Below, one piece after another: positions 10,993 to 39,732 of a stretch of DNA of 58,991 nucleotides. The position numbers were made by a program, and so were the translations under genes. Location: positions 1-58,991 of the forward strand of contig JAKAPJ010000006.1 of assembly GCA_021807115.1 (NCBI GenBank). The letters run 5' to 3'. Source of the stretch: Microcaldota archaeon. Its GTDB lineage: Archaea > Micrarchaeota > Micrarchaeia > Micrarchaeales > Micrarchaeaceae. Position 1 is the stretch's first letter; every line of letters starts with the position of its first letter. Under the pieces are notes generated by a model that was not told the origin of the DNA, did not search any database, and worked only from the letters and a program-made list of their open reading frames with translations.

Positions 10993-13407
10993 CTATGTCA
11001 GTATGCCCTCTGGCGAATCGGCGTCTATTAGCACCACGCTGCCAACGGATACGTACATCTTTAGCTCCTCAGCGGCCCTGGAGTTGGAACTGTAGAGCCA
11101 CTTTGTGAATTCCCCGAGCTTGTCCGAGTTCAGGAACACGATGTATGTCTTGGAGTTTGCGTACACAGGCACCTTCTGGAACCTGCTGGTCTTCGAACTT
11201 ATAACTATGTAGGCTCTCTCGCTGTGTATCGTCGTGACTATGTCCGCCGCGTCGCTCTTGTCCAAGTCCGTGAACACGTGCCCGTGGCTGACCAGGCTTA
11301 TCCTGAGCTTCTTGAACGTCGCAAGGTACTCTACGTCGTGCTTGCTCTGCTCTATCCAGGTGGCGGGGGCGTACAGGTCGTCGGCCGAGACCAGCAGCCC
11401 CTTGTTCACCATGGCATCGAGTATGGCATCTATGTTCTTGTACGTCAGTGTCACTGACATCGCATTGTAGTGGATGTTGTTGGAAACACCGAACCTGAAG
11501 TCGGCCTTTGACAGCGGCATATAACGCCAGTGGTAGTGGATGTTGAGCTTGTCGAACACCCCGAGTATCTCGGTGTACTTTATCTTGATGCTCTGCGAGA
11601 CTGGCCGCGGCATGCTCGACACGTCCACGTAGAAGTCGTCCCTGGCAGGGGCCTTTATAACGGTTATCTCTATGACCACTATGAGCAGCGCGACCATGAA
11701 CTCTATGTACTGCCTGTTTATCGTGAACGCTATGGCGTTTGGCACTATGGTGTATGTGTAGTTGCGCGACAGTACCGTGGCCTGGAAGTTAAGGTCCTGG
11801 TTGGGGGGCACTGATGTGCCAAGAGGCAGTTGGTACTTAACCGTGCCGTTGTAGAGCGTGACGTTCTGCTTGTACTGTCCGTTCATCGTGATTGTGGCGT
11901 TGAAGTTAGACAGTGGCGTGCCGGAGTCCAGCACGGAGAATATGAATGTGCCGCTGGTGGTGTTATAGCTCAGGATGTTCAGGCTTATGTTCGGGACCGT
12001 GAATGTGGCGTAGCCATACGACTCTTCGGAGAACCCTACAAGTTGCGCTATGTACCTGCCGGGAGGGAGCTTGAGGTTGATTACCTGGAGGAATGAGTAG
12101 TAGGGAGGCGAAACGTTCTTGGAGAAGAACGGCGCAAGGCTCCCCGCGGTGCGGAAACTGCTGTCGTATATGTTTATGTGCGGCTCTATCTGCTCGGTCC
12201 TGTTTACGAAAATCCGCATGGTTGCATTGAATGGGTAGCCGGGGGTTACGTTTTGCGGCATGGAGAAGAAACCGTTAAGCGCCATGTTGGGCCTGAATGT
12301 CAGGAAGCTGTATACTGTGTTGTGGGTTGGGCTTGTGGCGGCTATGGTGGCTAGGGGATAGGCTGAATTTAGGTTGGCAAGTATTGTCCCTATGCCGGTA
12401 GCGTTGTTCCCTAGAGGTATGCTTATGTTGCTCATGAAGACAGGGAGCGTGCCGGAGCCGGAAGAGGACGGGTTGGTGGTGACCGTGAAGTTTGCGCCAG
12501 TATAAGAGGGCATCCAGAACATTAGGTAAAGCGCTCTAGCTATGTCATGGCCCGCATCGCCCGGCGTGGGCCACGTGCTTAGGTAGTTTGAGAATGCCAG
12601 GACCGTGCCGTTGTACATGTTGGTGTACGTTATGGGGCCGTATGGCCTTGAGTTAGGGAATGCGAAGGATGTCTGGTTGAAATAAAACCCTGTGGAACGG
12701 AATGTCATGTTTGTCTGGGGCCCGGTTGGGCTGGTTGTTAGGGGGAACCTGGAGTTGGAGTTGGGGACTATGACGGACTGGGATGTTAGAAGGTGGGAGA
12801 AGTTCTGGCCCACGTATATTATGGTGACACCACGGTATGTCAGGTAGCTGATTAGGTCCTGGGTGCCCACGTAACTGTTTGCCATGTAGTCCGGGAGCAG
12901 GCCGTTGAGCACGATAAGCGTTGAATTGGGCTGTATCTGACCGAGCTGCGACGATGTTATAATCTGAGGGCTGAAGGACACGTTCTCGACGCCGTATGCT
13001 ATGAGGTTGGACGCCATGGACCGCACTACCTCCGGCACATTGGGGCAGTTGCGGCACTCGTTGGACCAGTTCAATATGTATATATTGCGCGGCACTGGGC
13101 GCGCTAGGTACCTGACGTGCACGGTGAGATTCGATGCGTTCACGGCATTGTAGTCGAAGAGTGCGTACGGCACGAGCGTGGTGTTGTAGTTGTACGACAT
13201 CAGCGCCTGCATTGCAAAAATGCTGCTGAGATGGGGTACGGCGTATGTGCTGACAGGCCCGGATGGCCCCGATGCGCCCGACACTAGTGAGTGTATGTAG
13301 AATCCCATGACGGCGAAAATCAGTGCGAGCACTAGCATGCCTATGAGCATAAGCCGCAGCTTTGTGTTTGGCGGTTTTTTTTCAGGAGCGGATGTGGATT
13401 CTGCCAT
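10993..13407 (-). CDS. Large bitopic membrane protein of the secretion-like locus
   Basis: 804 residues from the ATG at 13407 (GTG 13416 is possible). A cytoplasmic N-terminus of about 17 residues leads into a membrane segment (about 18-42). Then comes a ~545-residue extracellular region with many Asn-X-Ser/Thr sequons and two nearby cysteines (ECRNCP). A second membrane segment (about 589-609, YIEFMVALLIVVIEI) follows, and finally a ~195-residue cytoplasmic domain with helix-turn-helix-like and alpha/beta segments. No family recognised. Being last in the run of minus-strand genes after the ATPase cluster, it may be a structural or sensory part of the machine. It converges on top6B, 4 bp away. 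Confidence 0.8.
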   Translation of the reverse strand: MAESTSAPEKKPPNTKLRLMLIGMLVLALIFAVMGFYIHSLVSGASGPSGPVSTYAVPHLSSIFAMQALMSYNYNTTLVPYALFDYNAVNASNLTVHVRYLARPVPRNIYILNWSNECRNCPNVPEVVRSMASNLIAYGVENVSFSPQIITSSQLGQIQPNSTLIVLNGLLPDYMANSYVGTQDLISYLTYRGVTIIYVGQNFSHLLTSQSVIVPNSNSRFPLTTSPTGPQTNMTFRSTGFYFNQTSFAFPNSRPYGPITYTNMYNGTVLAFSNYLSTWPTPGDAGHDIARALYLMFWMPSYTGANFTVTTNPSSSGSGTLPVFMSNISIPLGNNATGIGTILANLNSAYPLATIAATSPTHNTVYSFLTFRPNMALNGFFSMPQNVTPGYPFNATMRIFVNRTEQIEPHINIYDSSFRTAGSLAPFFSKNVSPPYYSFLQVINLKLPPGRYIAQLVGFSEESYGYATFTVPNISLNILSYNTTSGTFIFSVLDSGTPLSNFNATITMNGQYKQNVTLYNGTVKYQLPLGTSVPPNQDLNFQATVLSRNYTYTIVPNAIAFTINRQYIEFMVALLIVVIEITVIKAPARDDFYVDVSSMPRPVSQSIKIKYTEILGVFDKLNIHYHWRYMPLSKADFRFGVSNNIHYNAMSVTLTYKNIDAILDAMVNKGLLVSADDLYAPATWIEQSKHDVEYLATFKKLRISLVSHGHVFTDLDKSDAADIVTTIHSERAYIVISSKTSRFQKVPVYANSKTYIVFLNSDKLGEFTKWLYSSNSRAAEELKMYVSVGSVVLIDADSPEGILT

Positions 13408-13421
13408 TGTCAGCACTCACC

Positions 13422-13571
13422 CTAAATCTTGAGCTTTTCCTCCTTCTTGACCCCCGCAAAGACGCGCATGAACAGCTTGGTCAGGAAATTAACGTTGCCG
13501 CTTGTCTTCTTTAGTATGCTGTATATGCGTACATTCCTTACCCTTGTGTTTATCCTGATGAGGTATTTCAT
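13422..13571 (-). CDS. Short basic protein, 49 residues
   Basis: A small open frame begins with ATG at 13571, directly after the stop of the coiled-coil gene, and ends with TAG 14 bp before the next start. It fills the gap exactly. The product MKYLIRINTRVRNVRIYSIL and onward is very basic (about 16 Lys/Arg), with no cysteines or membrane segment. Its fit between two co-oriented genes is the main evidence. It could be a nucleic-acid or membrane-surface binding accessory. It was not recognised. Confidence 0.55.
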   Translation of the reverse strand: MKYLIRINTRVRNVRIYSILKKTSGNVNFLTKLFMRVFAGVKKEEKLKI

Positions 13572-13572
13572 C

Positions 13573-14310
13573 CTATTGCCCCTTTAGCTCTATGAAGCCA
13601 CGCGAGACCATTATGTTCAGTATCTGCTCCACGCGCGGTGGAGTTATCCTGTAGTTGCCGGCGAATTCGTTTATGTCTATTGCGCCGTCGTGCGACTCTA
13701 TCCACTCCTCGACCAGTGCCATGAGCGACTCGTCGGAGTACGTCTCTAGCTGCTTTAGCCTGTTCTTGAGCTCGGTGTTTTCCTGGCTAAGCATGGTAGC
13801 CTGCACGGAGAGGTTCTTGTTGGAGTTTGCCAGTTCCTTGTTGAGCTTGCGCAACTCCACGTACTTGCTGTAGAGCGTCTCGAGCTGCTGCACTACGGAG
13901 CTATAGTTGGGCGATAGTGTGGTAAGCGCGTTGTCTATTGACGAATCCACCTGGGGGTAGAGCATGGAGTCGTCCACGCGGTACTGGTCTATAACAAGCG
14001 AGAGGATAATTATTGTGTTCTTGAGGACAAAGAGGCGACGGAGGCTTGCGCTGGACAGCTGGTTAGGCACTACGTCCGGAGGGACCGAGTAGTCAATTTC
14101 CATGTGGTCAGGAAGGAACTTGAAAATCATGAAAAGAAAGGGCTTCTTCTGCACCGTCGTCGTCTCCACGCGCACCAGCGTGAGGTCGGTTGCAGTGGAC
14201 TTTATGGAGAACATCTGCAGCGTTGCCAGCCTGCGCGCCATGTCGGCGAAGTTCCCGGTCAGCGACCCGTTTAGCTTTATGCTTTCTATCTTGGGTTCCA
14301 ATACAGCCAT
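13573..14310 (-). CDS. Coiled-coil protein with C-terminal winged helix
   Basis: 245 residues from the ATG at 14310 (GTG 14331 would add seven). An N-terminal mixed alpha/beta domain (about 1-140) is unrecognised. Residues about 140-190 form a long coiled coil (LETLYSKYVELRKLNKELAN and onward). The last ~50 residues look like a winged helix: DGAIDINEFAGNYRITPPRV, then VEQILNIMVSRGFIE. It has its own TATA box and heads a transcription unit of three genes (this, the 49-residue ORF and the 807-residue membrane protein). A regulatory or DNA-handling function for the secretion-like locus is a guess. Confidence 0.72.
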   Translation of the reverse strand: MAVLEPKIESIKLNGSLTGNFADMARRLATLQMFSIKSTATDLTLVRVETTTVQKKPFLFMIFKFLPDHMEIDYSVPPDVVPNQLSSASLRRLFVLKNTIIILSLVIDQYRVDDSMLYPQVDSSIDNALTTLSPNYSSVVQQLETLYSKYVELRKLNKELANSNKNLSVQATMLSQENTELKNRLKQLETYSDESLMALVEEWIESHDGAIDINEFAGNYRITPPRVEQILNIMVSRGFIELKGQ

Positions 14311-14383
14311 CTCGCCTGCCACGCCTATCACTCACTATCCAACGACCGTGGACTGGGCCGTATATTAAGGATACCAAATAACC

Positions 14384-14422: not shown

Positions 14423-14776
14423 CTATTTCACCGCTTTTCCAGGGATGCTTACCCTTGGCACATATGTGAGCAGGGAGATGAAGTACATGAACACCACTAT
14501 CATCGACCCGAACACCACGCCGGACAGGGGGTTTATCGTTATTAGCAGTATCGCCATCAGTACACCCAGCGCAAGGTAGAGCTTGAGCCTGCCCTCGAAC
14601 TTCTTCCTGGCCTTGCGGTAGTTGGCATAGCACTCCTTGCAGACTACGAGGCGGAAGCCGGTCTTGCGGCCCAGTTTTTCTTTGACCCACCTTATGCCCC
14701 TTATGACATTGTCGTCGATAACCTCTAGGCCGTTCTTGTGCTCCCCGCACATTATGCATCGATTCTCCCTCATCAT
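14423..14776 (-). CDS. Zinc-ribbon protein with two membrane segments
   Basis: 117 residues. Cysteine pairs CIMC (about 7-10) and CKEC (about 46-49) form a small zinc ribbon on the cytoplasmic side, followed by a basic stretch (KARKKFEGRLK). Two membrane helices span about 67-82 and 87-108. No named family. It is one base after the 102-residue gene and belongs to the ATPase operon. The frame shift relative to the overlapping frame at 14412 was settled by the CXXC motifs. Confidence 0.75.
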   Translation of the reverse strand: MMRENRCIMCGEHKNGLEVIDDNVIRGIRWVKEKLGRKTGFRLVVCKECYANYRKARKKFEGRLKLYLALGVLMAILLITINPLSGVVFGSMIVVFMYFISLLTYVPRVSIPGKAVK

Positions 14777-14777: not shown

Positions 14778-15086
14778 TCATCCGAAGTCTATGCTGACAT
14801 TGAACAGCCTGCCTGACTCTGACAGCACCCTCTGTTCATCCGCAGAGTCCAGGATGTCGCGTATTGTCACGTCGTCCATGCCTATCCTGCGGAACATATT
14901 GATTATCTGGTCCCTGTTCAGCCCCGCCTTCTCCAGCAACCCGGATAACGCTATGGCGTTTATGTGCCTGTGCGCCTTCTCCACCGCGCTCAGCAGCTGT
15001 TCCATGTTCTTGTCAGGTATGTTATAGGCTATCAAGACCCTGCGTATCTCCTGCCTGCTTATTATGAATGTCTCGGTCTTGGCCAT
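14778..15086 (-). CDS. Small helical protein resembling the ATPase C-terminal tail
   Basis: 102 residues, soluble and helical. The segment LEKAGLNRDQIINMFRRIGM followed by DDVTIRDILD aligns by eye with the last ~30 residues of the neighbouring ATPase (LKLNDVSTNN, then GIGLDDVIITRIIS). It appears to be a free-standing copy of that tail module, perhaps a regulator or assembly partner of the ATPase hexamer. Its ATG overlaps the ATPase stop in TAATG, so translation is coupled. Confidence 0.75.
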   Translation of the reverse strand: MAKTETFIISRQEIRRVLIAYNIPDKNMEQLLSAVEKAHRHINAIALSGLLEKAGLNRDQIINMFRRIGMDDVTIRDILDSADEQRVLSESGRLFNVSIDFG

Positions 15087-16594
15087 TATGCCCCTACCCT
15101 GGATATTATTCTGGTTATTATCACGTCGTCAAGGCCTATCCCCTTGAGGAAGAGGACGATGTTGTTAGTCGATACGTCATTGAGCTTGAGATCCTGCACG
15201 AAATCCAGTATCTTCATCTTCCTTCCGGACTGGTTCAGCTTTGAGAACACCTCATCGACGCCGATCTTGTTCATGTTGAGCTCTATCAGCTTGTTCTGCA
15301 GCTCGCCCTGCTCAAACTGGAACTCGTTCTCTATTATCTTTGCGGAAACCTCACCCTGCGTGAGTATGTCGCTCAGGGTTATGACGTAGACGTGCAGCGG
15401 CTCCTCCCCCTCTATGCGCTCCAGTATGAAGGTGCCGGGGAACCTTATTGCACTCTGGAACGCCATCTCTACGGCAGCCTGGCCTACGCCGAAGCGAGAT
15501 ATCTCCGTCCTTATGAATTGCGAGAAGTTGAGCGAACTCTGCAGGAAGTTGAGGAAGTTCTCGAACTTTACCTTGAGCATGAACGTGGTGCCTACGTTGG
15601 AGAATATAGCCTCGTTTATGTCTGTCGGATTTTGCGACGCCACAATCAGCGCGAACCCGTACTTCCTGCCCTCCCTGATTATAGTTATGACCGCGCTCTT
15701 GTCGTCCTTTGCCAGCTTCCACGCCTCGTCCAACACCAGGATCGTCTTGAGCCCCTTAACCGACAGCCAGCCCTCCGCGCGCATCTTCTCGGTGACCGTC
15801 TGGACTATGAAAAGCCCGGCAAGCGCCCTGAAACGCTCGTCGGGGAGACCTGAAACGTCGACATCAACAAGCCCCGAGTTCGCCAGCTTGCCCAAGTCCA
15901 GCGTGCTTTTCCTGGCAAAGAAGTCCTCCCCCTCCCGTGCGAACTGCCTCAGCCGGTATATGGCGTTCTCAAGCTCTGCAGGGTACTCGTATGTACCCTC
16001 CTGGAGCTTCTCGTCGAGCAGGGCTATCACATCCTTGAGCGTTGGGGCGTCCTTGCCCTCTGGCGGCTTCTCGTAGGGTATGAAGCCGAAGTTTGTGTAC
16101 GACTGCTCTAGTGCCTCTTCGGTAAGGCGCTTCTGCTCAGGGTACTGCCCGATGTCCGTCAGCAGGTCGAACGCGTTTATTATCTGCTTTACCCTGTCCA
16201 GCGGTTTCATGCTTGAAAGGTCCATGATGTTGAGGTAGTCGCCCTTCGCCAGCGCCACCACCACCCCCCCGCTCTGCTTCACCCAGTCCCTGTACTCGCC
16301 TGCCCAGTCTATTATTATCGCGTTGCTGTTCCATACGTAGCTTGCGCGTATGAGCAGCGTCTTGATGAAGTAGCTCTTCCCGGATCCGGTTATACCGACT
16401 ATGGACATGTGCGGATTTGCCAAGTTTGTGTAAGTCCATGAGAATGGCATCTTGAATATCTTGGTCGTGCCTATGAATATCGACCCGAATGGGTCGTTTA
16501 TGAGCACGTCAGAAGGCGGCTCTGGTGGACGGGACAGGAATGCCCTCTTTGCTATCTCGTTGCTCATTATGTGCTGCAGGCGTATAAGGGTCAT
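15086..16594 (-). CDS. VirB4/HerA-superfamily secretion ATPase
   Basis: 502 residues. It has Walker A GITGSGKS (about 69-76), an early acidic strand NAIIIDWAGEY, Walker B TILVLDEAW (about 287-295), and an ASQNP motif with a following arginine-rich region, as in VirB4, CedB and HerA motors of the FtsK-HerA class. The VirB4 N-terminal membrane-proximal domain is absent. It seems to be supplied by the two upstream genes. The C-terminal ~60 residues form an extra helical module duplicated in the next gene. It probably powers pilin handling or substrate transport across the membrane. The start is ATG 16594; ATG 16567 (MSNEIAKRAFL) is an alternative. Confidence 0.88.
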   Translation of the reverse strand: MTLIRLQHIMSNEIAKRAFLSRPPEPPSDVLINDPFGSIFIGTTKIFKMPFSWTYTNLANPHMSIVGITGSGKSYFIKTLLIRASYVWNSNAIIIDWAGEYRDWVKQSGGVVVALAKGDYLNIMDLSSMKPLDRVKQIINAFDLLTDIGQYPEQKRLTEEALEQSYTNFGFIPYEKPPEGKDAPTLKDVIALLDEKLQEGTYEYPAELENAIYRLRQFAREGEDFFARKSTLDLGKLANSGLVDVDVSGLPDERFRALAGLFIVQTVTEKMRAEGWLSVKGLKTILVLDEAWKLAKDDKSAVITIIREGRKYGFALIVASQNPTDINEAIFSNVGTTFMLKVKFENFLNFLQSSLNFSQFIRTEISRFGVGQAAVEMAFQSAIRFPGTFILERIEGEEPLHVYVITLSDILTQGEVSAKIIENEFQFEQGELQNKLIELNMNKIGVDEVFSKLNQSGRKMKILDFVQDLKLNDVSTNNIVLFLKGIGLDDVIITRIISRVGA

Positions 16595-16652: not shown

Positions 16653-17486
16653 TCACTGCTGTATGTCGAAGTTTGATGAGAGTTCCTCATAAGTGGTAGG
16701 TAGCGCGAAGCTGAACTTGAACAGGGTGTAGAGCTCCCTGCCGACCACGCGAAGTATCTGCACGTCGAGCACCCCCATCGCTATGGAAAGCTGCTTGAGC
16801 TGGGCGGAGAGGTTGTCCAATGCCGCCTTCTCGCTCACGCCCACCGCGGTTGTCTCTATATACATCAGGTTTGCTATCGGTTTCTCCTCCTGCGATATCC
16901 TGTCCATCTTCGCCTGTATCACGTTTATGTTCCTCTGCAAATCTGCCATTATAACCTCGGTGGTGTTCTTGCTCTGCATTGCACGCGACATCTGGAACTC
17001 CTGGTACGACCTCTTGCCCTCCAGCTCGTCCCTGACCTGCTGCACGTCCAGGGCGGAGGACATCACGTGGAACTTGAAAGGGAAGTCCAGGCTCATGACC
17101 GCCTTCTCCCAGTTCTCCGGTGCCACCATGCGCCGCTCATCCTCGCCCTCCGGGGCGGCCTCGGCCTTGAACGTGTGGGCGAACAGGTTCGCGGTAAGGT
17201 AGCCTGTGGCGTAGTAGAGCCCGTTTACGTTCTTTATCACCGCCTCCTGGCCCCTGGTTATCTTGTAGTTCCTTGATGGCTGGAACGTTATTCCAAACAA
17301 TCCCGTCATCAAAGGGAACACGATAAAGTCGGCGAACGTCATCATGAGCAGAAAGACCACGCCCAGTATGCATATCAGTATCACGCCGTACCCGTATATG
17401 CCGCCTCCGAACGTGCCGAAGTTGGCGGCCACTATGAATATTATGACCATGGACATTCCGAAGTACATCATGGTTGTATCGTCCAT
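16653..17486 (-). CDS. VirB3-like membrane hairpin plus VirB4 N-domain-like protein (copy 2)
   Basis: 277 residues. Two to three membrane helices lie in residues 8-65, followed by a cytoplasmic domain of about 200 residues. Segments such as GQEAVIKNVNGLYYATGYL and EKAVMSLDFPFKFHVMSSAL resemble the N-terminal domain of VirB4/TraC ATPases that contacts the membrane complex. A helical stretch with KRSYQEFQ follows. In bacteria VirB3 is often fused to VirB4, and here the VirB3-like hairpin and VirB4 N-domain appear fused while the motor is separate. Its ATG overlaps the previous stop in TAATG. The assignment is structural inference. Confidence 0.68.
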   Translation of the reverse strand: MDDTTMMYFGMSMVIIFIVAANFGTFGGGIYGYGVILICILGVVFLLMMTFADFIVFPLMTGLFGITFQPSRNYKITRGQEAVIKNVNGLYYATGYLTANLFAHTFKAEAAPEGEDERRMVAPENWEKAVMSLDFPFKFHVMSSALDVQQVRDELEGKRSYQEFQMSRAMQSKNTTEVIMADLQRNINVIQAKMDRISQEEKPIANLMYIETTAVGVSEKAALDNLSAQLKQLSIAMGVLDVQILRVVGRELYTLFKFSFALPTTYEELSSNFDIQQ

Positions 17487-18322
17487 TATGACACCTGCTC
17501 CCTTATCTGCTTGGTTATCTGCTCGCTTATTGTGGAATACGGTATTAGGTACTCAGGCTCCACGAACTTTAGCAGCGCCTCGCCCGTCACGATGCTTGGA
17601 GGCACCCCAAATATCGACCCTATTGCGGACATGGCGTCCCTGGACCTGGCCTGCGCCGCGCTTATTGCCTCGAACTCCTTGCTCCCCTTGCCTGACACCG
17701 AGGCGTATGTTATCATCTCGAATGACGCGGTGCCGCTTATCCTGTCGAACATATGGTGCCACATGCTTGCCTTGCCCTTCACCCGATCCTCGCTTTCGTC
17801 CGTCTTCACTCCGCTCGCTATCAGCGCCTCCTTGTTCTCTACCTCCCCTATAGTGTCACGGATGGTCTTTAGGTAGTCGTCCTTGTTCATAACGTTCATC
17901 TGGGACGTGAACCGTATGGGATCGTGGCTCATGCATACCACCCTGGCGCATTGCCTTGTGAACTCCATCTTCTCAGTCTCGCCCATCTCAGTGGCGGAGA
18001 TGTAGAGGGGTATCTTTATGTATATTGTTGATGTAAACATGTCGCCCTCCTTGTGCAGTATCGAGTCGCCGGTGGTAGACAGCCAATATGCGTCCTCGTT
18101 GCTGAGCACTATGTGCCTCTTCCTCTGCTTGAGCACTGGCAGGAACAGGTAGCCGTAGAACCTTGACGAGAACGCCATAAGGTCGAAGAAGAACGCCACG
18201 GCAAGTATCACCAGCCGGTACGATGGGTCTATCACTCCCTGTGGTATGGTTATCTCGACAAGCACCATGAATATCGCTATCATCAGCAACCCGATGAATA
18301 CGAATATACCTGCGTTTTCCAT
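17486..18322 (-). CDS. VirB3-like membrane hairpin plus VirB4 N-domain-like protein (copy 1)
   Basis: 278 residues from ATG 18322 (GTG 18349 would add nine). The layout matches the next gene: two membrane helices (about 4-24 and 34-60) and then a ~200-residue cytoplasmic domain with a beta-rich start (KRHIVLSNEDAYWLSTTGDS, IYIKIPLYIS), a conserved VCMSHDPIRFTSQM strand and a long helical part. The two proteins probably form a heteromeric collar between the VirB6-like channel proteins and the ATPase. Coupled to the next gene by TAATG. Confidence 0.68.
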   Translation of the reverse strand: MENAGIFVFIGLLMIAIFMVLVEITIPQGVIDPSYRLVILAVAFFFDLMAFSSRFYGYLFLPVLKQRKRHIVLSNEDAYWLSTTGDSILHKEGDMFTSTIYIKIPLYISATEMGETEKMEFTRQCARVVCMSHDPIRFTSQMNVMNKDDYLKTIRDTIGEVENKEALIASGVKTDESEDRVKGKASMWHHMFDRISGTASFEMITYASVSGKGSKEFEAISAAQARSRDAMSAIGSIFGVPPSIVTGEALLKFVEPEYLIPYSTISEQITKQIREQVS

Positions 18323-18384
18323 TCTTACATCACTGTGGACATCTCGCACATGGCGAAGCTACAGACTTGATATTGAGCGGCAAA

Positions 18385-18415: not shown

Positions 18416-19591
18416 TCATATGAACCCCGCCCTCAGCCTCCCCCCCATCTGCGTGCTGGCCCCTATGAAATTGGCGACTTGTGTTATGAATGCGTAAGTT
18501 ACGGATATTACGAGGACAGGGTAGAATAGAACAAACAGCCACAAGGGCTGCATTGGCGCAAACACTGATGTGTATAATGGGCCGGGCAGGCCGTTCAGGT
18601 CTATGCAGCCCGATGTATTAGGTGTGCACTGCGAGAACACGAAGGCGAACAGGGTCGGCATTACCACGTAGAACCCCATGCCTATTGCAATAAGCATTCC
18701 CCCAAACGCGCGGGTCGGGAAGAACGCCCTGAACACCACTCCAGTAGCAACGAGTATGGGCGACATGAAGGAGAAGAACACCAGCAGGTAGTACTCGGAC
18801 CACAGGACAGCCATAAGATCGGTGATTAGTGGTGCCAGGGTGATTATCGGAAGCATGTACTGTACATAATCACTCAGCTTTATCGCAGCGACCGAACCGG
18901 CCACAAACGACTGGAGGTATGACTCGAATTCTCCAAGTATAGGCAGCTCTATTGTGTAATCAACTGTCAATGCCATGGCGAGCTGGGCGTATCCTGTGCA
19001 GCACCCATTCACATTCAAAAGCCATGGCGCGGATACTGATATGTCGAACATGTTCTGGTCGAATATGTACTCCAGGTTGCCTATCGTATTGCATATGCCT
19101 CCGATAGCAAAAACATACGGATCCGTAAGGGCGGCGGTGGGCTTCCCGCCCTGGAACAGCACAAGGGAGTTGGTGGTCGACAGGGAGGATGTGCTGCCTA
19201 TGAGCACGGATGGCACCGTGTTTATAACCAAGCCGGCTATGAACAGGAAGAACCCAACTATTATTGCAGTCGTTATTGCCTCGTATATCTCGCCTAGCCC
19301 GAAGTTCCTTATCCTGTCGCTCTTCGCCGCCGCCCCCACCATGAATATTATAGTGGCAATCAGGAACGATATCAGCACCGCTATAAGGGCAATGTTGAAG
19401 TCAGGGCCCCATGATGCGTCTATGTTGCTTTGTACCTGCGTTGAGGATGGGCAGGCGGGGTATGTGGTGTACTGGGCGGCAGGGGACAGCGACAACAAGC
19501 TAGTTACCATTATCAGCGCCATGGCTGCAAGTGCGGCCAACTTCCGCGCCGATGGGACATCCCCGCTTCGTGAAATGCTTTTTCTCGGCAC
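18416..19591 (-). CDS. VirB6/CedA-like polytopic membrane protein (copy 6 of 6)
   Basis: 391 residues starting at GTG. It has a signal-like first helix (about 17-38), helices near 66-88 and 100-125, an extracellular loop with paired cysteines (CNTIG, NGCCTG), then four or more helices. The family signature of this locus is RAFFPTRAFGGMLIAIGMGF followed by a Pro in the next helix. A second shared element is the post-helix segment LGEIYEAITTAII. VirB6 and CedA proteins form the inner-membrane part of type IV systems and of the crenarchaeal DNA importer. Last of six tandem paralogues transcribed in the minus direction. Confidence 0.75.
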   Translation of the reverse strand: MPRKSISRSGDVPSARKLAALAAMALIMVTSLLSLSPAAQYTTYPACPSSTQVQSNIDASWGPDFNIALIAVLISFLIATIIFMVGAAAKSDRIRNFGLGEIYEAITTAIIVGFFLFIAGLVINTVPSVLIGSTSSLSTTNSLVLFQGGKPTAALTDPYVFAIGGICNTIGNLEYIFDQNMFDISVSAPWLLNVNGCCTGYAQLAMALTVDYTIELPILGEFESYLQSFVAGSVAAIKLSDYVQYMLPIITLAPLITDLMAVLWSEYYLLVFFSFMSPILVATGVVFRAFFPTRAFGGMLIAIGMGFYVVMPTLFAFVFSQCTPNTSGCIDLNGLPGPLYTSVFAPMQPLWLFVLFYPVLVISVTYAFITQVANFIGASTQMGGRLRAGFI

Positions 19592-19593
19592 GT

Positions 19594-20727: not shown

Positions 20728-20746
20728 TGTTATCAGTATATTTTGT

Positions 20747-21838: not shown

Positions 21839-21852
21839 GCCCTACACCATAT

Positions 21853-23373: not shown

Positions 23374-23381
23374 ATTTGCAC

Positions 23382-26792: not shown

Positions 26793-26844
26793 TTCGTACC
26801 ACTGCGCATCCAAGGCATCCTGGCAAGAACAGATTGCAAATCTA

Positions 26845-28292: not shown

Positions 28293-28326
28293 GGAAACCA
28301 CATTTTTGTATTTTTACTATTGATAT

Positions 28327-28346: not shown

Positions 28347-28604
28347 TACACACGTGCAACATTGTGCAATACCGGCAGGTCCGCCCACCAACCTATCATC
28401 ATTTGGTAATAACCGGATGCATCGCAGATTACGGTCAGGGCGCCCATTTGTCGCGCGGGTAGCATAAGGAGTTGCCGCGATGCGTGAACATAAAGGAAAT
28501 GCGCCACGACGGTGATTAGATTATTATGTTTTCGGTGTGATAACCTATCGGGGACTTGCTGTGTGCATTTTAGCCAGCATTGCACGGGCGGCCATTGGGA
28601 ATGT
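28347..28604. other. Divergent intergenic region, no gene seen
   Basis: About 260 bp between the pilin C promoter and the plus-strand gene at 28605. No open frame of credible composition and no RNA gene was recognised. A weak AT-rich element (about 28520-28540) may be the promoter of the plus-strand gene. Confidence 0.4.
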
Positions 28605-30344: not shown

Positions 30345-33300
30345 TCATGGAGAAACGGGGGGGGTGGTACTCCACCTGAGCATGGTGATTGCGCCGTTGC
30401 CGCCGTATCCGCTGCCGCCGCTGGCGGGAATGAGGTATGGATTGCTGCCGCATGTTGTGCCGCTGCCTCCCGCGCCGCCGTTCACGGAAAGGTGGAGCGC
30501 AGCTGAAACTGACACATCATACGCGATTACTATTGCGCCGCCGCCGCCTCCTCCGCCGCCGGCGCCCCCTGTGGCGGACCCGCCGTTGCAGTTTCCTGGC
30601 GTGCCAGACGCACCATTAGAATACACATAGCCGCTTCCTTTGATTGTGTTTGCCTGTATGTATATCCCGTATGCGCCGTTGCCGCCCGGCGAGCCTTGGC
30701 TCTCCTGCCCGCTTATGGCACCGTCGCCGCCGCCTCCTCCGCCGCTGCCTGTGAATGCAGGGGCTATGTTATCATTTCCAGGATTGGGCCATAGCGATGA
30801 TATAGCGCTTAGGGAGGGGGTAGCATATGGGCTTCCGGTGGAGCCAGAGCCGCCGGGGTACGCGGTCTGCGATCCGGTGCCGGTGGTCGTTCCGCAGTAT
30901 GCACCGCCGCCGCCGCTCTGCGCGCCTTGGCCAGTACCTGCGTTGCCGCCGCCGCCGGAATTGCCCAATGCAACAGGGGAGCCACCGCATCCCGAATTTG
31001 GGTTCCGGCAGGTGGTGGACGTATCGCATATGCCACAATCGGAGCTGCCGCAGCTATTAAACGTCCCGCACGCCCCATCGCACCACGGCCCTGCCTGTGA
31101 CGTGGCGGCGCCGTTGTACCCGCCACCGTTGCCGCCAGCGGTAGTTGCCGCGCCGCACTCGGGACTTGCGGTGTCGTTTGCTGCACCTCCGCCTCCTCCT
31201 CCGCCGGGGCCGCCGTATTCGCCGCCGCCTGTGCCGGCTTGGCCGCCCGTTCCAATATTCTGGTTGTTGCCGTTGCAGCACAAGTGGCCGGTCCACGACC
31301 AACTGCACCAGCTGCAGCTCTGGCAGCTTACGCCTGAGCCGTATCCCCCTCCGCCGCCAGGCACATTCGCAACAGCAGTGGAGTAGGAGCCCCACTGGCT
31401 TGCCCCTTCGACGGTACCGTTTCCCGTAACAACCGTCCCGTCAAGCGTGATAGTGTTGCCCGCCACAAGGTTGAAGCCGTTCGTGTACAGCGTATAGCTG
31501 CTGTCCACCTGTATGTTGCAGTCCGAAACTGCGTCACCTGACAGATAGCAGTTGTTCCCGGTACATGATATCACCGATGCCACGCCTCCGGCCTGTATGG
31601 GAGGGTTTGTTACCTCGTACATCTGGCATATCGTTGACGTTGTGGACGTTGTGGATGTGGAGGACGATGTTGAGGATGTGGAGGTGCTTGAGGTGGTGGT
31701 GGATGTGGAGGATGTAGTGGTCGTAAGGTTGGCGTTGTATGTGCCTGCGCATGATGAGAGTATCTGGCTTACTGGGGTGTTAGTGGCCATGGAGATTATC
31801 CACAGTGCCGAGGTTGATATTATAGCTCCGACCACTCCGGCCAAGAACATGCCGATGCCGTATCCCTGTATCACTCCTCGGTCTGCAGCAGGCAGCACAT
31901 GGGAGCCTTCGTACATGATTGCGCCAAGCAGCAGCAGGACGATTGTGAGGAGTACGAGCGCAGTATTTACCTGATTGTATATGTAGCAAACCGCCTGTAG
32001 GAACGGCGCGGTGTTGTTTGGGCCATAGCTCTGTATTGGCGGGGGCGGCGCGGGCTGATAGACCTGGAAAAAGCCCAGGGCATCGTATATGGGCGCCGCG
32101 GTGGGCGAGGGCTGGAACACGCCGCAGTATATGTAGTTGCCAACCGGAAGAGTGCCGGTAGGGTTAGCGGAATCTGCGGTAGGCGTAACGCTGTTTACAT
32201 TGCAGTCCAGAACGCTGCTGTCCACCGATGCCAGTGAAGATGCTTGACATGAGCATGGCGGGCTTGGATCGTATGCGCTTGAACCGCTTCCTGACGCGTA
32301 TCCACAGGATACGCCTGCGCCCGTGTCTGTGAGCTCGTATTGCTGGTAGCACCCGCTGGCCGCACTATGGGAGGCGCCGTTGCACTGGCTTGAGCCGCTT
32401 ATGGAGCTCACTATAGGCCCACACAGGGCCGCGTAGTTGTTAGATATTGCGGTCCCGGGGGGCAGTGAATTCGCATACAGGAACAGGGGTGAATATGATT
32501 GGCCAGGCCCTGGCGGGACCACACCGTCAATTACGAAGTTAGCGGATATCATGTTGCCCGCTATAGTGGTGGGGGTGTTGAATGCGAACGAGCCGAAGCT
32601 TATGGTGGATACGTGCTGCCCTGAGCCGGAGGGGACGTGGTATGGTCCGCCTTCCACGCAGTTTCCTGAGCCACCAGCACCGCTGCACACTACATTTGCT
32701 GACGCGAATTGCGTGGAAATGTACATACTGCAGCTGCTGGCGCACGGAATTGGCTGCGAGCTATAGTCGTAACCGCAGACCATGTAGTTGCCCTTTGGAA
32801 GCGAATCTGGATTGAACGTGCCGCTGGAGCTGCCTGATGACACCAGGCAGGGTGCCTCACTGGCCGTTAGTGTGCCAGTACACGCCGACAGCTGCGGCGA
32901 GGTGCTGCCCTTTGGGATGGGCGACACGCATCCCTGCCCGGATGCTCCACCTGCAAACTCAAGATAGCATGAACCGCTTGTGCACCATGGTAGTGACGCT
33001 AACCCCCCACTGAATACTACATCGTCACCGCTGCTGGATATGCCAAGGGTATTTGTATTTGTAACGTTCAGGCCTACGGCATAGCCCGGGAACCAGCCGC
33101 CGTTGTAATTGTAAAATGTGCATATGTTATACTGCCCCTGCAGGACGGAGTGGTTTGTGTACGATACAGCCTTGCATGTGGTTCCAGACAGCGAAACGGC
33201 TTCATCAAGGAGGCACGCCGGAGGAGGGTATGTGTTCGCCTGACTGCCGGAAGGCTGATTGGTGTAATACAGATCGCAATAGCCGCCGCTTAGAAGGGAG

Positions 33301-33542
33301 ATTGCGTTTGTGGCACATGGCTCGCCGGGGGAGGAAAGCTCAGTGATAATATGGTTGGAGTCGCACGTTACGCCTACGCCGTTCAGGTACGTTACTGCAA
33401 CGGACGCCCCGGGCGTTATGTTGGTTGCGGTAGTAGCCAGGCTATCCGCGCCCGTGCACTGTAGCAGTACATACATGAATAAGATTGCTGCGATTGGCAA
33501 AAGCCTGCGTATCTGTTGCATGATTTCATGTTGGTCTGCCAT
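30345..33542 (-). CDS. Giant surface protein with internal VirB2-like hairpin and glycine-rich C-terminus
   Basis: 1065 residues. A signal peptide (about 1-32) precedes an extracellular region to about 500 with cysteine-bearing repeats of the type GNYMVCGYDY. Residues about 511-600 are a VirB2-like unit: CYIYNQVNTALVLLTIVLLL, the turn LPAADRGVIQGYGIGMFLAG, a second helix and SSC. A Thr/Ser linker (about 603-640) follows. From about 700 to the end the chain is polyglycine-rich (runs of 5-9 Gly) with many cysteines (CQSCSWC, CCNGN). Both ends of a VirB2 hairpin face outward, so both large domains should be surface-exposed. A role as a pilus tip or adhesin is inferred. Confidence 0.75.
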   Translation of the reverse strand: MADQHEIMQQIRRLLPIAAILFMYVLLQCTGADSLATTATNITPGASVAVTYLNGVGVTCDSNHIITELSSPGEPCATNAISLLSGGYCDLYYTNQPSGSQANTYPPPACLLDEAVSLSGTTCKAVSYTNHSVLQGQYNICTFYNYNGGWFPGYAVGLNVTNTNTLGISSSGDDVVFSGGLASLPWCTSGSCYLEFAGGASGQGCVSPIPKGSTSPQLSACTGTLTASEAPCLVSSGSSSGTFNPDSLPKGNYMVCGYDYSSQPIPCASSCSMYISTQFASANVVCSGAGGSGNCVEGGPYHVPSGSGQHVSTISFGSFAFNTPTTIAGNMISANFVIDGVVPPGPGQSYSPLFLYANSLPPGTAISNNYAALCGPIVSSISGSSQCNGASHSAASGCYQQYELTDTGAGVSCGYASGSGSSAYDPSPPCSCQASSLASVDSSVLDCNVNSVTPTADSANPTGTLPVGNYIYCGVFQPSPTAAPIYDALGFFQVYQPAPPPPIQSYGPNNTAPFLQAVCYIYNQVNTALVLLTIVLLLLGAIMYEGSHVLPAADRGVIQGYGIGMFLAGVVGAIISTSALWIISMATNTPVSQILSSCAGTYNANLTTTTSSTSTTTSSTSTSSTSSSTSTTSTTSTICQMYEVTNPPIQAGGVASVISCTGNNCYLSGDAVSDCNIQVDSSYTLYTNGFNLVAGNTITLDGTVVTGNGTVEGASQWGSYSTAVANVPGGGGGYGSGVSCQSCSWCSWSWTGHLCCNGNNQNIGTGGQAGTGGGEYGGPGGGGGGGAANDTASPECGAATTAGGNGGGYNGAATSQAGPWCDGACGTFNSCGSSDCGICDTSTTCRNPNSGCGGSPVALGNSGGGGNAGTGQGAQSGGGGAYCGTTTGTGSQTAYPGGSGSTGSPYATPSLSAISSLWPNPGNDNIAPAFTGSGGGGGGDGAISGQESQGSPGGNGAYGIYIQANTIKGSGYVYSNGASGTPGNCNGGSATGGAGGGGGGGGAIVIAYDVSVSAALHLSVNGGAGGSGTTCGSNPYLIPASGGSGYGGNGAITMLRWSTTPPVSP

Positions 33543-33749: not shown

Positions 33750-36700
33750 TCATGAACATCTATAGAACGGGCCTTTAACGTGGCAGCTGCTGGAGCAGCA
33801 GTACGCACCGTATGGAACCGTGCATGTTTCGCCACTGGGGCACGTGGCAGTTTTAGTGCCGCATGCGCTACACACCAATATTGATGTCGTGGTTGACACG
33901 CTGGTGGTCGTGGTAGTTAGCAGCACGACATTTGCCGGGAATGCGCCGCAGTACCCGCCGCCTGCGCCCGAAATCCCGATCACGTTGAGGACCTCATCTG
34001 TGCTGGTGGTTATGTCATTGACTGCAGGAGTGCCGCAAATACTGGAAGTGAATACGCTGGTATCGTACACAGGTGAAGTGGACTGCGCCTCTACTATGTC
34101 CTTGATAAACCCTGAGTCCCCGGAATTGTCGTATATCACATACTTAGTCTGGAAACCCGTATAACACAGCTGCGACGCCTGCTGGCCCCCTCCGGGACAT
34201 GGCGGAGACGCAGTAAAATCGCCGTTGCAGTACGATATCTGTAGGGTGAGGTCAGAGCATGGCGGCACCGACTCGAATGCCGCTGATTCAGTGACGGGTG
34301 AAGACATGTCAAGGCTGCTGGTGTACGGGTTGGTGGTCCCGCTGTAGCTGTTGGTCCCGATACCAGACCAGCGCGCAAAGGCGTTGTATGTGGAGGGAGT
34401 GGCCGTTATCTTTGGTATCAGCGTGCCTGCCTGCAGCCACTCGCTCGATGGGGATACAGTGCCACCGGCGCCTGCTATCATGGTAAGCGCATACCACCTC
34501 TCGTATGTGGCGGTGATTGTGCATGCCGAGTAGCCGGGGTTAACGGTGCCGGATGCCGCATCTGGCGCTCCGCAGCCTGATGTGCTGTACCACAGCCACT
34601 GGTCCTCGCCTGAGGTTACTGTCTCGGGGTTCGTCCATGCGAATGTGAGGGGCACGTTTGCGGGCACTGTTACCTGCACGGGCAGCTGCGACTCGGTGTA
34701 TGGCCCTAAACCGGTTACGACCAGAACAGTGTTGCCTCCGGATATGCCAGAGAGGGAACTGGGCGACGTGGCAAACGTGACCTTGATCGTAACGCCGAAT
34801 TGGGCCGTCTCCGATATACCGTTGCTGTTTACGGTAAGCGTATTGGGGTTCACGGTGCCGCTGTAGCTGCCGGTGCCGGTGCCGTCCCATGCCACAAAGG
34901 CGTTGTTTGGATCCGCGGTTGCGGTAATCGTGTGCACTGAGTCCGCAAGGACCCATTCAGATGTCGGGGTAACTGACCCACCGAAGCCCGCATTCATCTG
35001 CAGATAGTACCACTCCTTGTAAGTCGCGGTTATTGTGCATGTTGAGCTGGCCTTGAACGAGCCGCTCTGCGCGGACTGGCCGCATCCTGAAAGGCTATTG
35101 AATATCCATTGGTCGCCAGACCCCACCGTGACTGGCGAGCTATACGAGTAGCCCACATATACCCCGTTCGCAACCGTGATCGTGACAGGCATCTGGGCTT
35201 CGGTGTATTGGATGTGCTGTACAAAGACAGTATCTGCGCTCGTCTTTGTGCCAGTTAATGGGGAGGGGGACAGCGCAAAGGTTATGGAGTAAGTTGGGGT
35301 GAACTCTGCATTTTCTGTGACTGGCCCAGACATGGTGACACAGCTGGTGCAAGGGTTCGTTGTTCCGCTGTAGCTGCCTGAGCCTGTGCCGGTCCACGAC
35401 GTGAATATGTAGGACGCCCCCGCAGATGCTGATATCGAAACCCCAGTTGATGCAGGTTCCCACCCGCTTGATGGCGTCACCGTGCCGCCTGGGCCTGGGT
35501 TCATCGTGAGGTAATAGTATTCTATGTAGTTGCCCTGCTCATTGCAGGCTCCGCTCACTATGAACGAGCCGCTTTGGGACGTTCCCCCGCATGTGCCGGC
35601 AACAGAGCTGAATCCCCATTCATCCGCACCGGCAGTGAGGACAAATGGGGAATCCCATGAGTATGTGACGGTGCTGCCGCCATTGACCACTATGGTTTCC
35701 GGCAACTGGGATTCCTTGTAGTTTACGCCATCTACCGTCACAATGACCGTGGTGCCTGATACTCCCGTGAGTGAGGAGGGCGATGTGCCGAAGACTATAT
35801 CGTAATGCACAGGGAGGATTACAGTCGTTGTGGTTGTTACGGAGGTTGTGGTAGATGTGGTTACCCCGCTTGTTGCGGGGGCCGAGGCTACGGAAGTGGC
35901 GATGGTTGGAAACGATGCCGCCTGGGAGGCCAGATTTGTAATGTATGGGGGGGGATTTATGTTCACAGGGACGGCTGGGCATGCTTGTCCCAATATGGAG
36001 CCGACCGAAGTGCCTGTTGCGACCGAAAGGAGCCATGCGGCCCCGACCGATATCAGAGCGCTTACGACACCGGCTATCATCATGCCTACCGCATATCCCT
36101 GCACAGTGCCGCGCATCGCGCCAGGCATTGAATGTGATGCCATGAAGAGCACGGCGCCTATTATCAGGACCACCAGCGCGAGCAACAGGAAGATGGTGTT
36201 TACCTGGTTATAGGTACCGCATATCACGTCGCTTATCGAGTTGAGTGTCACGGCGTTTGAGTTCACATGCGTCTCGCAGTTGTACGCGCCGCCTATGCAC
36301 GGGGTTATGAACAGCTCCGTGGCGGTAGCCTGCGAAGGGAAGTTTGTTGCATCCTGCTGCAGTGGCTGTGCGCCCTCGTACCCACATATGTCGTATGTGA
36401 CCGGAGGCTGGGCGGATGATGGGAGGGTGTATGTGCTCCAGCCGACGGTGAGAGTGTTTACGCCCGTGGTTGCGGAGGTGTTGGCCAGTATGCAGTCCCC
36501 TGCTATCGTAAGGCTTGTCAGCGGATTTGCCCAGCTAGTTGTTCCCCCGCTGCAGTACGGCAGGCGAGATGGCGGCGTTGTGGGGGGGTACCACGATGGA
36601 GGCCCTATGCCAACGCAATGCCCGTAAACCCCTGTAGCTGCGCCGTTAGGTGAACCGACACTGTTTGCCAGCTCTATCCAAAGCTGGTTTGCCGACCCTG

Positions 36701-37295
36701 ATGGCGCAGTTGAGTTGAGCGTTATGTATATGAGCGTACCCTGCTTTACTACGTCGCTGGCCGCACCGCTGGAGGTGCTGAGCTGTATGGGCAATAGATC
36801 GGGGGATGTTGGAGCGACGCCAACCGGGTAGTTTGCCACGTCGGCCCCCCCTCCGGTGCTCCACCATCCGAAGAGGTAGCCGCTTGAGGAGACCTTAAGG
36901 CAGCCAGTATAAGGGCCTGGCCCGCCCGCGAGCGCTGGTGAATATCCGCTGAATGTCCCGCTGCTGGACGTGAGTGTTCCGGATGCCATGATGCAATTTA
37001 CTGGATATGGCGATGTTTGGTTGCAGGAGGGCGCGCTGATGTCCGGACAACTGTCCGTAGCGTTAGACCATATGAGCTGCCAGCTGCATGATGGCAGCTG
37101 ACCCGCCCACCATTGTCCGTTGCCGCACGAGAAACCCGAAACGCTTACCGTCAGTGGATCGTATGTGCCTGGCGCCACGGTGGCGTTGTTGTTCCACCAG
37201 GAACCGCTGACGCTCTGTGCCCGGTAGGACACCGCAAGGAACGTGAGGGCTATTGCAATAGCGATAATAGCCGTGACTGCTTTTCTGTAGCCCAT
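33750..37295 (-). CDS. Giant surface protein with internal VirB2-like hairpin and three InlB-like repeats
   Basis: 1181 residues. There is a signal peptide (about 1-27), then an extracellular domain to about 345. A VirB2-like unit spans about 347-442 (ICGTYNQVNTIFLLLALVVL, turn MPGAMRGTVQGYAVGMMIAG, then QACP). A Thr-rich linker leads to three ~170-residue repeats (about 496-1008). Each contains a YYLTMNPGPGGTVTPSSGW-like strand and a WTGTGSGSYSGTTNP-like turn, as in InlB/Flg_new-type beta-grasp repeats. A second Thr-rich linker precedes a C-terminal ~35-residue cysteine knot-like tail with ten cysteines. A GGAGGT Shine-Dalgarno sits 7 bp before the ATG. Probably an adhesin displayed on, or anchoring, the pilus. 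Confidence 0.76.
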   Translation of the reverse strand: MGYRKAVTAIIAIAIALTFLAVSYRAQSVSGSWWNNNATVAPGTYDPLTVSVSGFSCGNGQWWAGQLPSCSWQLIWSNATDSCPDISAPSCNQTSPYPVNCIMASGTLTSSSGTFSGYSPALAGGPGPYTGCLKVSSSGYLFGWWSTGGGADVANYPVGVAPTSPDLLPIQLSTSSGAASDVVKQGTLIYITLNSTAPSGSANQLWIELANSVGSPNGAATGVYGHCVGIGPPSWYPPTTPPSRLPYCSGGTTSWANPLTSLTIAGDCILANTSATTGVNTLTVGWSTYTLPSSAQPPVTYDICGYEGAQPLQQDATNFPSQATATELFITPCIGGAYNCETHVNSNAVTLNSISDVICGTYNQVNTIFLLLALVVLIIGAVLFMASHSMPGAMRGTVQGYAVGMMIAGVVSALISVGAAWLLSVATGTSVGSILGQACPAVPVNINPPPYITNLASQAASFPTIATSVASAPATSGVTTSTTTSVTTTTTVILPVHYDIVFGTSPSSLTGVSGTTVIVTVDGVNYKESQLPETIVVNGGSTVTYSWDSPFVLTAGADEWGFSSVAGTCGGTSQSGSFIVSGACNEQGNYIEYYYLTMNPGPGGTVTPSSGWEPASTGVSISASAGASYIFTSWTGTGSGSYSGTTNPCTSCVTMSGPVTENAEFTPTYSITFALSPSPLTGTKTSADTVFVQHIQYTEAQMPVTITVANGVYVGYSYSSPVTVGSGDQWIFNSLSGCGQSAQSGSFKASSTCTITATYKEWYYLQMNAGFGGSVTPTSEWVLADSVHTITATADPNNAFVAWDGTGTGSYSGTVNPNTLTVNSNGISETAQFGVTIKVTFATSPSSLSGISGGNTVLVVTGLGPYTESQLPVQVTVPANVPLTFAWTNPETVTSGEDQWLWYSTSGCGAPDAASGTVNPGYSACTITATYERWYALTMIAGAGGTVSPSSEWLQAGTLIPKITATPSTYNAFARWSGIGTNSYSGTTNPYTSSLDMSSPVTESAAFESVPPCSDLTLQISYCNGDFTASPPCPGGGQQASQLCYTGFQTKYVIYDNSGDSGFIKDIVEAQSTSPVYDTSVFTSSICGTPAVNDITTSTDEVLNVIGISGAGGGYCGAFPANVVLLTTTTTSVSTTTSILVCSACGTKTATCPSGETCTVPYGAYCCSSSCHVKGPFYRCS
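34272..35808 (-). repeat. Three tandem InlB-like protein repeats encoded in the giant surface gene
   Basis: Units occupy about 35305-35808, 34797-35302 and 34272-34796. Each begins with a strand like IVFGTSPSSLTGVSG, has ESQLPxxxxV, then a CTITATYxxWYxLTM link and ends with a TExAxF strand. They differ enough to be old duplications rather than recent slippage. Confidence 0.7.
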
Positions 37296-39257: not shown

Positions 39258-39647
39258 TCAGGAGAGCGGGCTTGGGCAAATCGCTATTATGTCCGCAACA
39301 GTGTTACCGGTTATGACCTGCAGTATCCATGGCGCAGCCATGCCTATTATCGCGCCGGCGGTGCCGCCTATGACCAGCCCCATGGCATACGCCTGCACTG
39401 CGCCTCTGGTCTGACCCGGCAGAAGGTTTGCCCCGGCATATAGGGCGCCGCCGAGTATCATGAGCATTAGGGCAAGCACGAACATTATTGTGTTTACGAC
39501 GAAATAGATGCTGCACAGGCTATTGGTTATGGCGCCCTGCAGCACAATGGCGCCTGCCTGGGCATGTGAGGTGCCGAAAACCGCGGGCAATAGGAGCATT
39601 GCTAGCTGCGCTATCCTGACCCATGAGCCACTGATTCGCATGCCCAT
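39258..39647 (-). CDS. VirB2/TrbC-like pilin (D)
   Basis: 129 residues from ATG 39647 (ATG 39641 is equally possible; the TTG/ATG-rich extension up to 39725 overlaps the promoter). The signal peptide ends near TSHAQ. The mature part has SLCSIYFVVNTIMFVLALML, the turn LPGQTRGAVQAYAMGLVIGG, a second helix with AAPWILQVITG, and ends ICPSPLS. It is the first gene of the minus-strand run and lies 92 bp before the giant pilin-fusion gene. Confidence 0.8.
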   Translation of the reverse strand: MGMRISGSWVRIAQLAMLLLPAVFGTSHAQAGAIVLQGAITNSLCSIYFVVNTIMFVLALMLMILGGALYAGANLLPGQTRGAVQAYAMGLVIGGTAGAIIGMAAPWILQVITGNTVADIIAICPSPLS

Positions 39648-39700
39648 ATAAACCACATCAGGCGGCTGGCGCGCCTGTGCATTTCTGTTTTGGCTTGAAC

Positions 39701-39710
39701 TATTTAAATA
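39701..39710 (-). promoter_or_regulatory. TATA box for pilin D
   Basis: TATTTAAATA, palindromic, lies about 55-60 bp before ATG 39647, giving an expected leader of about 30 nt. It marks the head of the secretion-like locus. Confidence 0.5.
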
Positions 39711-39723
39711 CCTTTTTGGTAGC

Positions 39724-39732
39724 AATATATAG
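39724..39732 (+). promoter_or_regulatory. TATA box for the 39.8 kb gene
   Basis: AATATATAG on the plus strand lies about 60 bp before ATG 39790. Initiation near 39755 would fall after the upstream TTG at 39745 and so supports the ATG at 39790. Confidence 0.45.

Follow-up and report, generated by a model that had tools for sequence, protein, structure and literature searches.

What might a cluster of genes resembling a type IV secretion system (T4SS), the machine by which bacteria pass DNA between cells, be doing in the chromosome of a Micrarchaeota archaeon that is tiny and probably host-dependent? The cluster lies at positions 10993-39725 (~28.7 kb) of a stretch of 58,991 nucleotides, hereafter the window, which is one contig (C32) of a metagenome-assembled genome (MAG) of 1.18 Mb and 85.75% completeness. 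An initial annotation of the window had described it as a large VirB-type locus of almost uniformly oriented genes, and open reading frame (ORF) calls confirmed that every gene is an open frame and that the locus lies on the minus strand throughout, with the gene at 28512-29366 as the sole exception. The route by which material passes between Micrarchaeota (ARMAN) and their hosts has long been sought, and cryo-electron microscopy has recorded bridges and pili without known genes (PMC4110969). The analyses pointed to a domesticated chromosomal machine of the VirB/Ced type, which probably builds pili with decorated surfaces that would serve to contact a host and to transfer macromolecules.

The ATPase of the locus, initially annotated as VirB4-class, matched three Pfam families above the cut-off (DUF87/HerA, 5.8e-16; AAA_10, 6.7e-12; TraG P-loop, 6.5e-10), and against the PDB its profile retrieved HerA structures first and Thermoanaerobacter VirB4 (4ag5) over residues 59-330; because HerA outscores VirB4, these matches establish the class (HerA/VirB4) and not the subfamily. 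The P-loop domain starts near the N-terminus, and therefore the VirB4 N-terminal domain (NTD) is missing from this chain. A fold of that kind was recognized in the neighboring protein 4Na, for which an AlphaFold2 model built from 40 homologues (predicted local distance difference test, pLDDT, 85; predicted TM-score, pTM, 0.74) was compared by Foldseek with 350,542 PDB chains. Ranks 1-5 were all R388 TrwK/VirB4, the sole matches at probability 1.00, while the next match after the VirB4 chains had a probability ≤0.44. The E-values of these matches were modest (0.005-0.02) and the TM-scores were low, at 0.36, which is not surprising if the model corresponds to a fragment of a much longer chain; the specificity is striking, and on the model 4Na has the VirB4 N-terminal fold. 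The alignment profiles of 4Na and 4Nb, too diverged for recognition by sequence alone, retrieved nothing relevant from the PDB sequences, and a Pfam scan of 4Na gave scattered chance matches only. The two proteins are paralogous (hhalign 99.9%, E 3e-37), and the initial view of them as a pair of VirB4-N-like membrane proteins was upheld. According to the modeling, VirB4 is split further than in Ced, with the NTD present as a pair of membrane-anchored proteins and the motor as a chain of its own; in Ced, the VirB4 NTD is shared out between CedB and CedD, and in both of them the portion is joined to an ATPase within the same protein (PMC11868833).

Profile searches found exactly seven pilin units in the whole MAG, all inside the window, which is the number of VirB2-like units initially annotated. 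The common plan is two hydrophobic helices with a basic loop, following either a signal peptide or an N-terminal ectodomain. Among 38 units, comprising those of the window and of related genomes, the loop carried R/K in 38/38, and a Cys was present near the N-terminal end in 36/38 and near the C-terminal end in 38/38. When the 38 were searched singly, T4SS_pilin (matched by 12) and TrbC/VirB2 (matched by 11) were the two most-matched of 24,736 Pfam families, the individual matches being weak (best E 6.6e-4); in a control of similar composition, the VirB6-like membrane proteins, the same families were matched by 1/29 and 0/29, respectively. Resemblance to archaeal type IV (archaellum-like) pili, which are marked by a class III prepilin N-terminus, was not observed, as Pilin_N was not among the Pfam matches of the pilins and the ATPase is of the HerA/VirB4 and not the GspE/PilT type. 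Three of the seven units are embedded in exoproteins of 586-1181 amino acids (aa), one of which (33750-37295) has three stretches of InlB-type repeats (PF18998, E 6.5e-11), and pilin units lie inside larger proteins (402-1284 aa) in relatives too. The VirB2-like topology, if real, puts both flanks outside, so that the exoprotein pilins would decorate the filament. One relative (G013) has four pilin domains in tandem in a single open frame of 502 aa (L080:1-1509), possibly a pilin polyprotein or concatemer, which is cut off where the fetched sequence begins.

The gene order recurred in 19 of the 20 relatives fetched, where synteny had been proposed as a check, and also in public MAGs, which indicates that the locus is not due to chance. 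The 4Na family was detected in 151 of the 164 genomes of the phylum and in 88 of the 96 good ones (phylum genomes counted at 85% completeness or more), and was missing from some deep families. The closest public relatives were Micrarchaeota MAGs, and the matching loci came from Micrarchaeota records or from related 'ainarchaeum' and Burarchaeum bins, in accordance with the probable DPANN/Micrarchaeota origin put forward earlier. The initial annotation had also named what would speak against it, namely no resemblance to VirB4 or VirB2, or no conservation; what was found was a VirB4 fold, pilin matches in Pfam and a phylum-wide gene set.

In the mechanism proposed here, a free HerA/VirB4-type motor would dock on the membrane-anchored 4Na and 4Nb, which would hold it beneath a channel of six non-interchangeable VirB6-like subunits, and the motor would drive VirB2-type hairpin pilins from the membrane onto the VirB6-like base to give a filament. 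With both pilin termini outside and the basic loop inside, the pilus surface could bear large adhesin-like domains; such domains, fused to three of the seven pilin units, would adhere to the host, and the channel would then pass macromolecules. The likeliest use would be to attach the cell to a host archaeon and to move macromolecules through the junction, with uptake (of DNA, nucleotides or proteins) as the most plausible form, paralleling a suggestion made for the T4SS of Patescibacteria. Microscopy of ARMAN described pili and synapse-like bridges to Thermoplasmatales, some penetrating structures being seemingly host-derived (PMC4110969), and the locus may be linked to these bridges and pili.

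Several observations weigh against this proposal. The filaments seen at contacts in co-culture of Ca. Micrarchaeum harzensis stopped short of crossing its S-layer, and the host was tentatively named as their source (PMC8975820). The pilin profiles retrieved no solved CedA1, TedC or VirB2 chain from the PDB sequences, and the structural match of the VirB6-like proteins to VirB6 was weak (probability 0.60, E 0.19, TM 0.24-0.30). A VirD4-type coupling ATPase (PF02534), NurA and ComEC were not found, absences that are limited by the 86% completeness of the MAG and by remote homology, and a classical DNA route is thus not evident. The earlier statement that relaxase, VirD4 and VirB8-10 are missing agreed with these results, since PF02534 was not found in the genome and VirB8-10, relaxase and integrase gave no Pfam match in the window genes scanned, where remote homologues of VirB8-10 could escape.

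The same absences bear on a second explanation, in which the locus imports DNA as Ced/Ted does, between Micrarchaeota cells and for recombination repair, and has no part in host interaction, which we consider possible, if somewhat unlikely. As in Ced/Ted of Thermoproteota (CedA, CedA1, CedB, CedD; PMC9905601, PMC11868833), a comparison that rests on published component descriptions, with solved pilin chains searched by profile only, the locus combines a HerA/VirB4-class motor, a VirB6-like channel and a VirB2-like pilin, the VirB4 NTD is divided between proteins, and VirD4, relaxase and VirB8-10 are not in the set; that no ComEC was found also suits an importer. In contrast to Ced/Ted, the motor carries no NTD and the NTDs stand by themselves as membrane proteins, the VirB6-like proteins number six where Ced/Ted has one or two, and the seven pilin units, three of them in large exoproteins, are accompanied by many additional conserved genes; adhesin-bearing pilins and such numerous accessory genes have not been described for Ced/Ted, and the MAG yielded no NurA, a protein with a proposed part in producing the substrate of Ced. 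The machine would work in the manner of Ced/T4SS, but full membership of either fails, as no VirD4 was found and VirB4 is split.

A separate cassette of relatives could, moreover, fill the importer role. Six relatives (G006, G020, G021, G037, G042, and G063) contain a second, unlinked compact run of a pilin, one VirB6-like protein, a VirB4N-like protein (~240-270 aa) and an ATPase (~360-450 aa), accompanied by one or two small partner genes, in which the VirB6-like gene lies between the pilin and the VirB4N-like gene. The cassette also occurs in a deep lineage (L148; the others are at L119-L124), and it shows the four components together a second time, away from the window locus. In size it comes nearest to Ced/Ted, a likeness that counts for the importer reading, and profile searches did not find it in the window's own incomplete MAG.

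Transfer in the outward direction has also to be considered, and a host-directed secretion system exporting effector proteins or adhesins, as proposed for the nanohaloarchaeal SPEARE/VirB4 proteins, appears unlikely. Giant adhesins of nanohaloarchaea are fused to VirB4/TraG ATPases (PMC10266531), and the adhesin repeats on a pilin protein of the present locus are in line with such a role; SPEARE and this locus are both DPANN candidates for host contact that combine adhesins with a T4SS ATPase. SPEARE, however, is a single giant fusion with Ig-like repeats, for which no pilin or VirB6 array is described, whereas the ATPase here is a free 502-aa protein and not an adhesin-VirB4/TraG fusion. No coupling ATPase (PF02534) was found, and no effector-like gene was recognized in the locus, though no systematic search was made.

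The polytopic array itself could be another membrane complex, such as a transporter, that merely neighbors a VirB4/VirB2 system, and this we regard as quite improbable. The six polytopic proteins (18416-26017) form one family by blastp and family profile, so that the number initially annotated stood, while their VirB6/CedA identity stood less firmly. VirB6 support from Foldseek was weak, the set gave no Pfam TrbL match (scattered chance matches only), its profile retrieved nothing relevant from the PDB sequences, and the location of the six-gene arrays of deep lineages, at a distance from the ATPase locus, suits an independent complex as well. Nevertheless, with the AlphaFold2 model of the position 4 protein (pLDDT 80), TrwI/VirB6 (7o3v) ranked 1 of 350,542 chains, a family member sits between the pilin and VirB4N-like genes in the minimal cassette, and the array keeps its place in the gene order of 19/20 relatives. 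Profile comparison of the pilin and VirB6-like alignments was weak (9.6%); some VirB6-like members have an N-terminus that matches the pilin profile, and in deep lineages two pilin domains are fused to a VirB6-like domain in single proteins. These matches and fusions agree with the homology reported between the N-terminus of VirB6/CedA and the VirB2 pilin (PMC9905601). Pilin-pilin-VirB6-like fusions stood at array position 2 (L129:5224-6801, L131:10023-11633, L135:1688-3604, and L138:9311 onwards). Given a weak rank-1 structural match plus stronger genomic context, the VirB6 identity of the array is tentative.

Whatever its identity, the array followed a six-gene rule. All six orthologues were present in the same order in the window and in 19/20 relatives of the window's order, and in the exception, G037, the six genes form a separate array. 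In G037, 4Na/4Nb, the six-gene array and the principal pilin gene are scattered over three places of one contig (L090, L125, and L126), and no ATPase was found within the 20 kb fetched around 4Na/4Nb. Ten deep-lineage genomes gave 11-22 VirB6-like profile matches each (matches and not genes, as some genes give two), and these fell into arrays which, where not cut by a contig end, mostly had exactly six called genes; in L127, L128, L135, and L145 five genes were called and the sixth was supported by a translated-search match. A 'core without channel' had been considered for deep lineages in which BLASTP saw no VirB6-like or pilin genes, and was discarded when a profile search placed both elsewhere in the genome. 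When the array positions were treated as labels on a tree built from 132 proteins, 11 changes were needed against 87.5 when shuffled (0/200 as low); the 21 arrays of the tree were picked as uncut six-gene arrays, hence 21/21 is no independent statistic. Each position formed a clade within the window's order (Shimodaira-Hasegawa-like approximate likelihood-ratio test, SH-aLRT, 97-100), and the deep lineages had one group per position across arrays, except for position 4 of L134. As the six-gene blocks were kept, and duplicated, as blocks, the six proteins would be parts of one complex and not interchangeable.

Tentatively, the six might form a fixed hetero-hexameric channel or pilus base, with one gene per ring position, matching a hexameric split VirB4. 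Such a ring, if true, would give the superfamily a novel architecture, with two blocks per genome in deep Micrarchaeota, at the host junction of an archaeal ectosymbiont. The known VirB6 is a homopentamer that matches a five-start pilus (PMC9259494), and the Rickettsiales have four to five divergent VirB6 genes, so that six could reflect functional specialization without a ring. R388 VirB/D4 (PMC9259494) resembles the locus in the fold shared by 4Na and the TrwK/VirB4 NTD and in TrwI as the top match of the VirB6-like protein, and differs in its homopentameric VirB6, single-chain VirB4, VirB3, VirB5, VirB7-11, VirD4, and relaxase. The rvh T4SS of Rickettsiales (PMC2653234) shares tandem divergent VirB6 paralogues (four to five in rvh), ancestral duplications and, in rvh, obligate host association, but has ≤5 VirB6 copies, VirB8-VirB11 and VirD4, an unsplit VirB4 and an unrelated lineage. 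At the end of deep six-gene arrays, proteins of 1292-1373 aa with a transmembrane segment (L127:2989-6867, L128:4028-8095, and L130:14373-18494) are candidate tip or adhesin proteins.

That the locus belongs to a mobile conjugative element which inserted into the chromosome is extremely improbable, because, although T4SS genes are typical of such elements, the flanking topoisomerase VI B gene (9327-10988) is the same neighbor in 15 public loci, which indicates a fixed chromosomal locus, its presence is phylum-wide, no coupling protein was found, and no relaxase or integrase was recognized in the genes scanned.

The T4SS of Patescibacteria (PMC12102498, PMC12857230), which is likewise chromosomal and widespread, occurs in ultrasmall, probably host-dependent cells, has pilin arrays and lacks relaxase in most clusters, as none was recognized here; epibiotic growth cannot do without its pilin array (PMC12857230), and in function it is the closest precedent for the present locus. 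It differs in being bacterial, with single-chain VirB4, VirB3, VirB8 and VirD4/TrsD-like proteins, and no six-gene VirB6 block is described. The present locus is an archaeal counterpart and hints that ultrasmall symbionts, archaeal and bacterial alike, depend on machines of one class. Type IV pili and Sec, but no T4SS, appear in papers on Mia14 and on the genomes of Micrarchaeota, and a 2025 review of T4SS covers archaeal conjugative plasmids and Patescibacteria and does not mention DPANN. No earlier report of the locus was found in the literature searched, which covered few subscription papers or preprints, and novelty is provisional; in the same literature, the combination of a split VirB4, a six-position VirB6-like block and decorated pilins was not found described for any system. 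The six-gene rule with positional identity, the second minimal cassette and the pilin-VirB6 fusions go beyond the initial annotation. As a phylum-wide T4SS-like locus and a leading candidate for what connects these cells to their hosts, it puts names to possible genes of the host junction and allows the parts of that junction to be predicted. The construction of T4SS motors and channels can be studied through the split VirB4 and the six-gene block as natural experiments, and the minimal cassette is a small test system.

Table 1. Genes of the VirB-type locus in the window, with predicted products and the basis of each assignment.
Position	Strand	Product	Basis
10993-13416	-	Membrane-anchored 807-aa protein, large predicted ectodomain and C-terminal domain; ends conserved gene run, adjoining topoisomerase VI B	blastp homologues, same place, 36/46 public loci
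13573-14331	-	Cytoplasmic coiled-coil protein, 252 aa, winged-helix-like C-terminus; core ATPase partner	Beside ATPase in 42/46 loci; sub-threshold EAP30/E2F-type winged-helix matches (Pfam)
14423-14776	-	Two-transmembrane CxxC protein, 117 aa; core ATPase partner	41/46 loci; no Pfam match
14778-15086	-	102-aa protein, similar to ATPase C-terminal tail	ATPase profile cross-match; 23/46 loci
15086-16594	-	HerA/VirB4-class motor ATPase, 502 aa, without VirB4 NTD	Pfam; PDB profile matches; invariant P-loop and DEAW residues
16653-17486	-	4Na, membrane-anchored free-standing VirB4-NTD-like protein	AlphaFold2 and Foldseek
17486-18349	-	4Nb, second VirB4-NTD-like membrane protein, 4Na paralogue	hhalign; 83/100 relatives
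18416-19591	-	VirB6-like polytopic protein, array position 6	Family profile; positional clade SH-aLRT 100
19594-20727	-	VirB6-like polytopic protein, array position 5	Family profile; positional clade
20747-21838	-	VirB6-like polytopic protein, array position 4	AlphaFold2 pLDDT 80; Foldseek rank 1 TrwI/VirB6 7o3v, weak
21853-23373	-	VirB6-like polytopic protein, array position 3, longest of six	Family profile; positional clade
23382-24686	-	VirB6-like polytopic protein, array position 2	Family profile; positional clade
24695-26017	-	VirB6-like polytopic protein, array position 1	Family profile; positional clade
26061-26813	-	Six-transmembrane protein, 250 aa, between pilins and VirB6-like array, outside VirB6-like family	Orthologues in 19/20 relatives
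26889-27257	-	VirB2-like pilin, signal peptide and two-helix hairpin	Pilin family profile; Pfam
27368-27766	-	VirB2-like pilin	Pilin family profile; Pfam
27900-28301	-	VirB2-like pilin, top-scoring against family profile	E 9e-42
28512-29366	+	Membrane-anchored extracellular protein, homologue of 29409-30185	blastp 27%, E 1e-14
29409-30185	-	Membrane-anchored extracellular protein, homologue of 28512-29366	blastp
30345-33542	-	1065-aa exoprotein; pilin hairpin at residues ~517-599 (nt 31746-32030) flanked by two large ectodomains	blastp; pilin profile
33750-37295	-	1181-aa exoprotein; pilin hairpin ~356-435; C-terminal InlB-type adhesin repeats	Pilin profile; PF18998
37406-39166	-	586-aa exoprotein with pilin hairpin at its end	blastp; pilin profile
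39258-39725	-	VirB2-like pilin	Pilin profile E 4e-37

Two homologous exoprotein genes (28512-29366 and 29409-30185) thus stand in opposite orientation within the pilin region. Beside the pilin end of the locus, mannosyltransferase-like (PMT_2) and carbamoyltransferase genes were located at 41287-44757; homologues occur near pilins in several relatives, and a function in surface glycosylation is possible.

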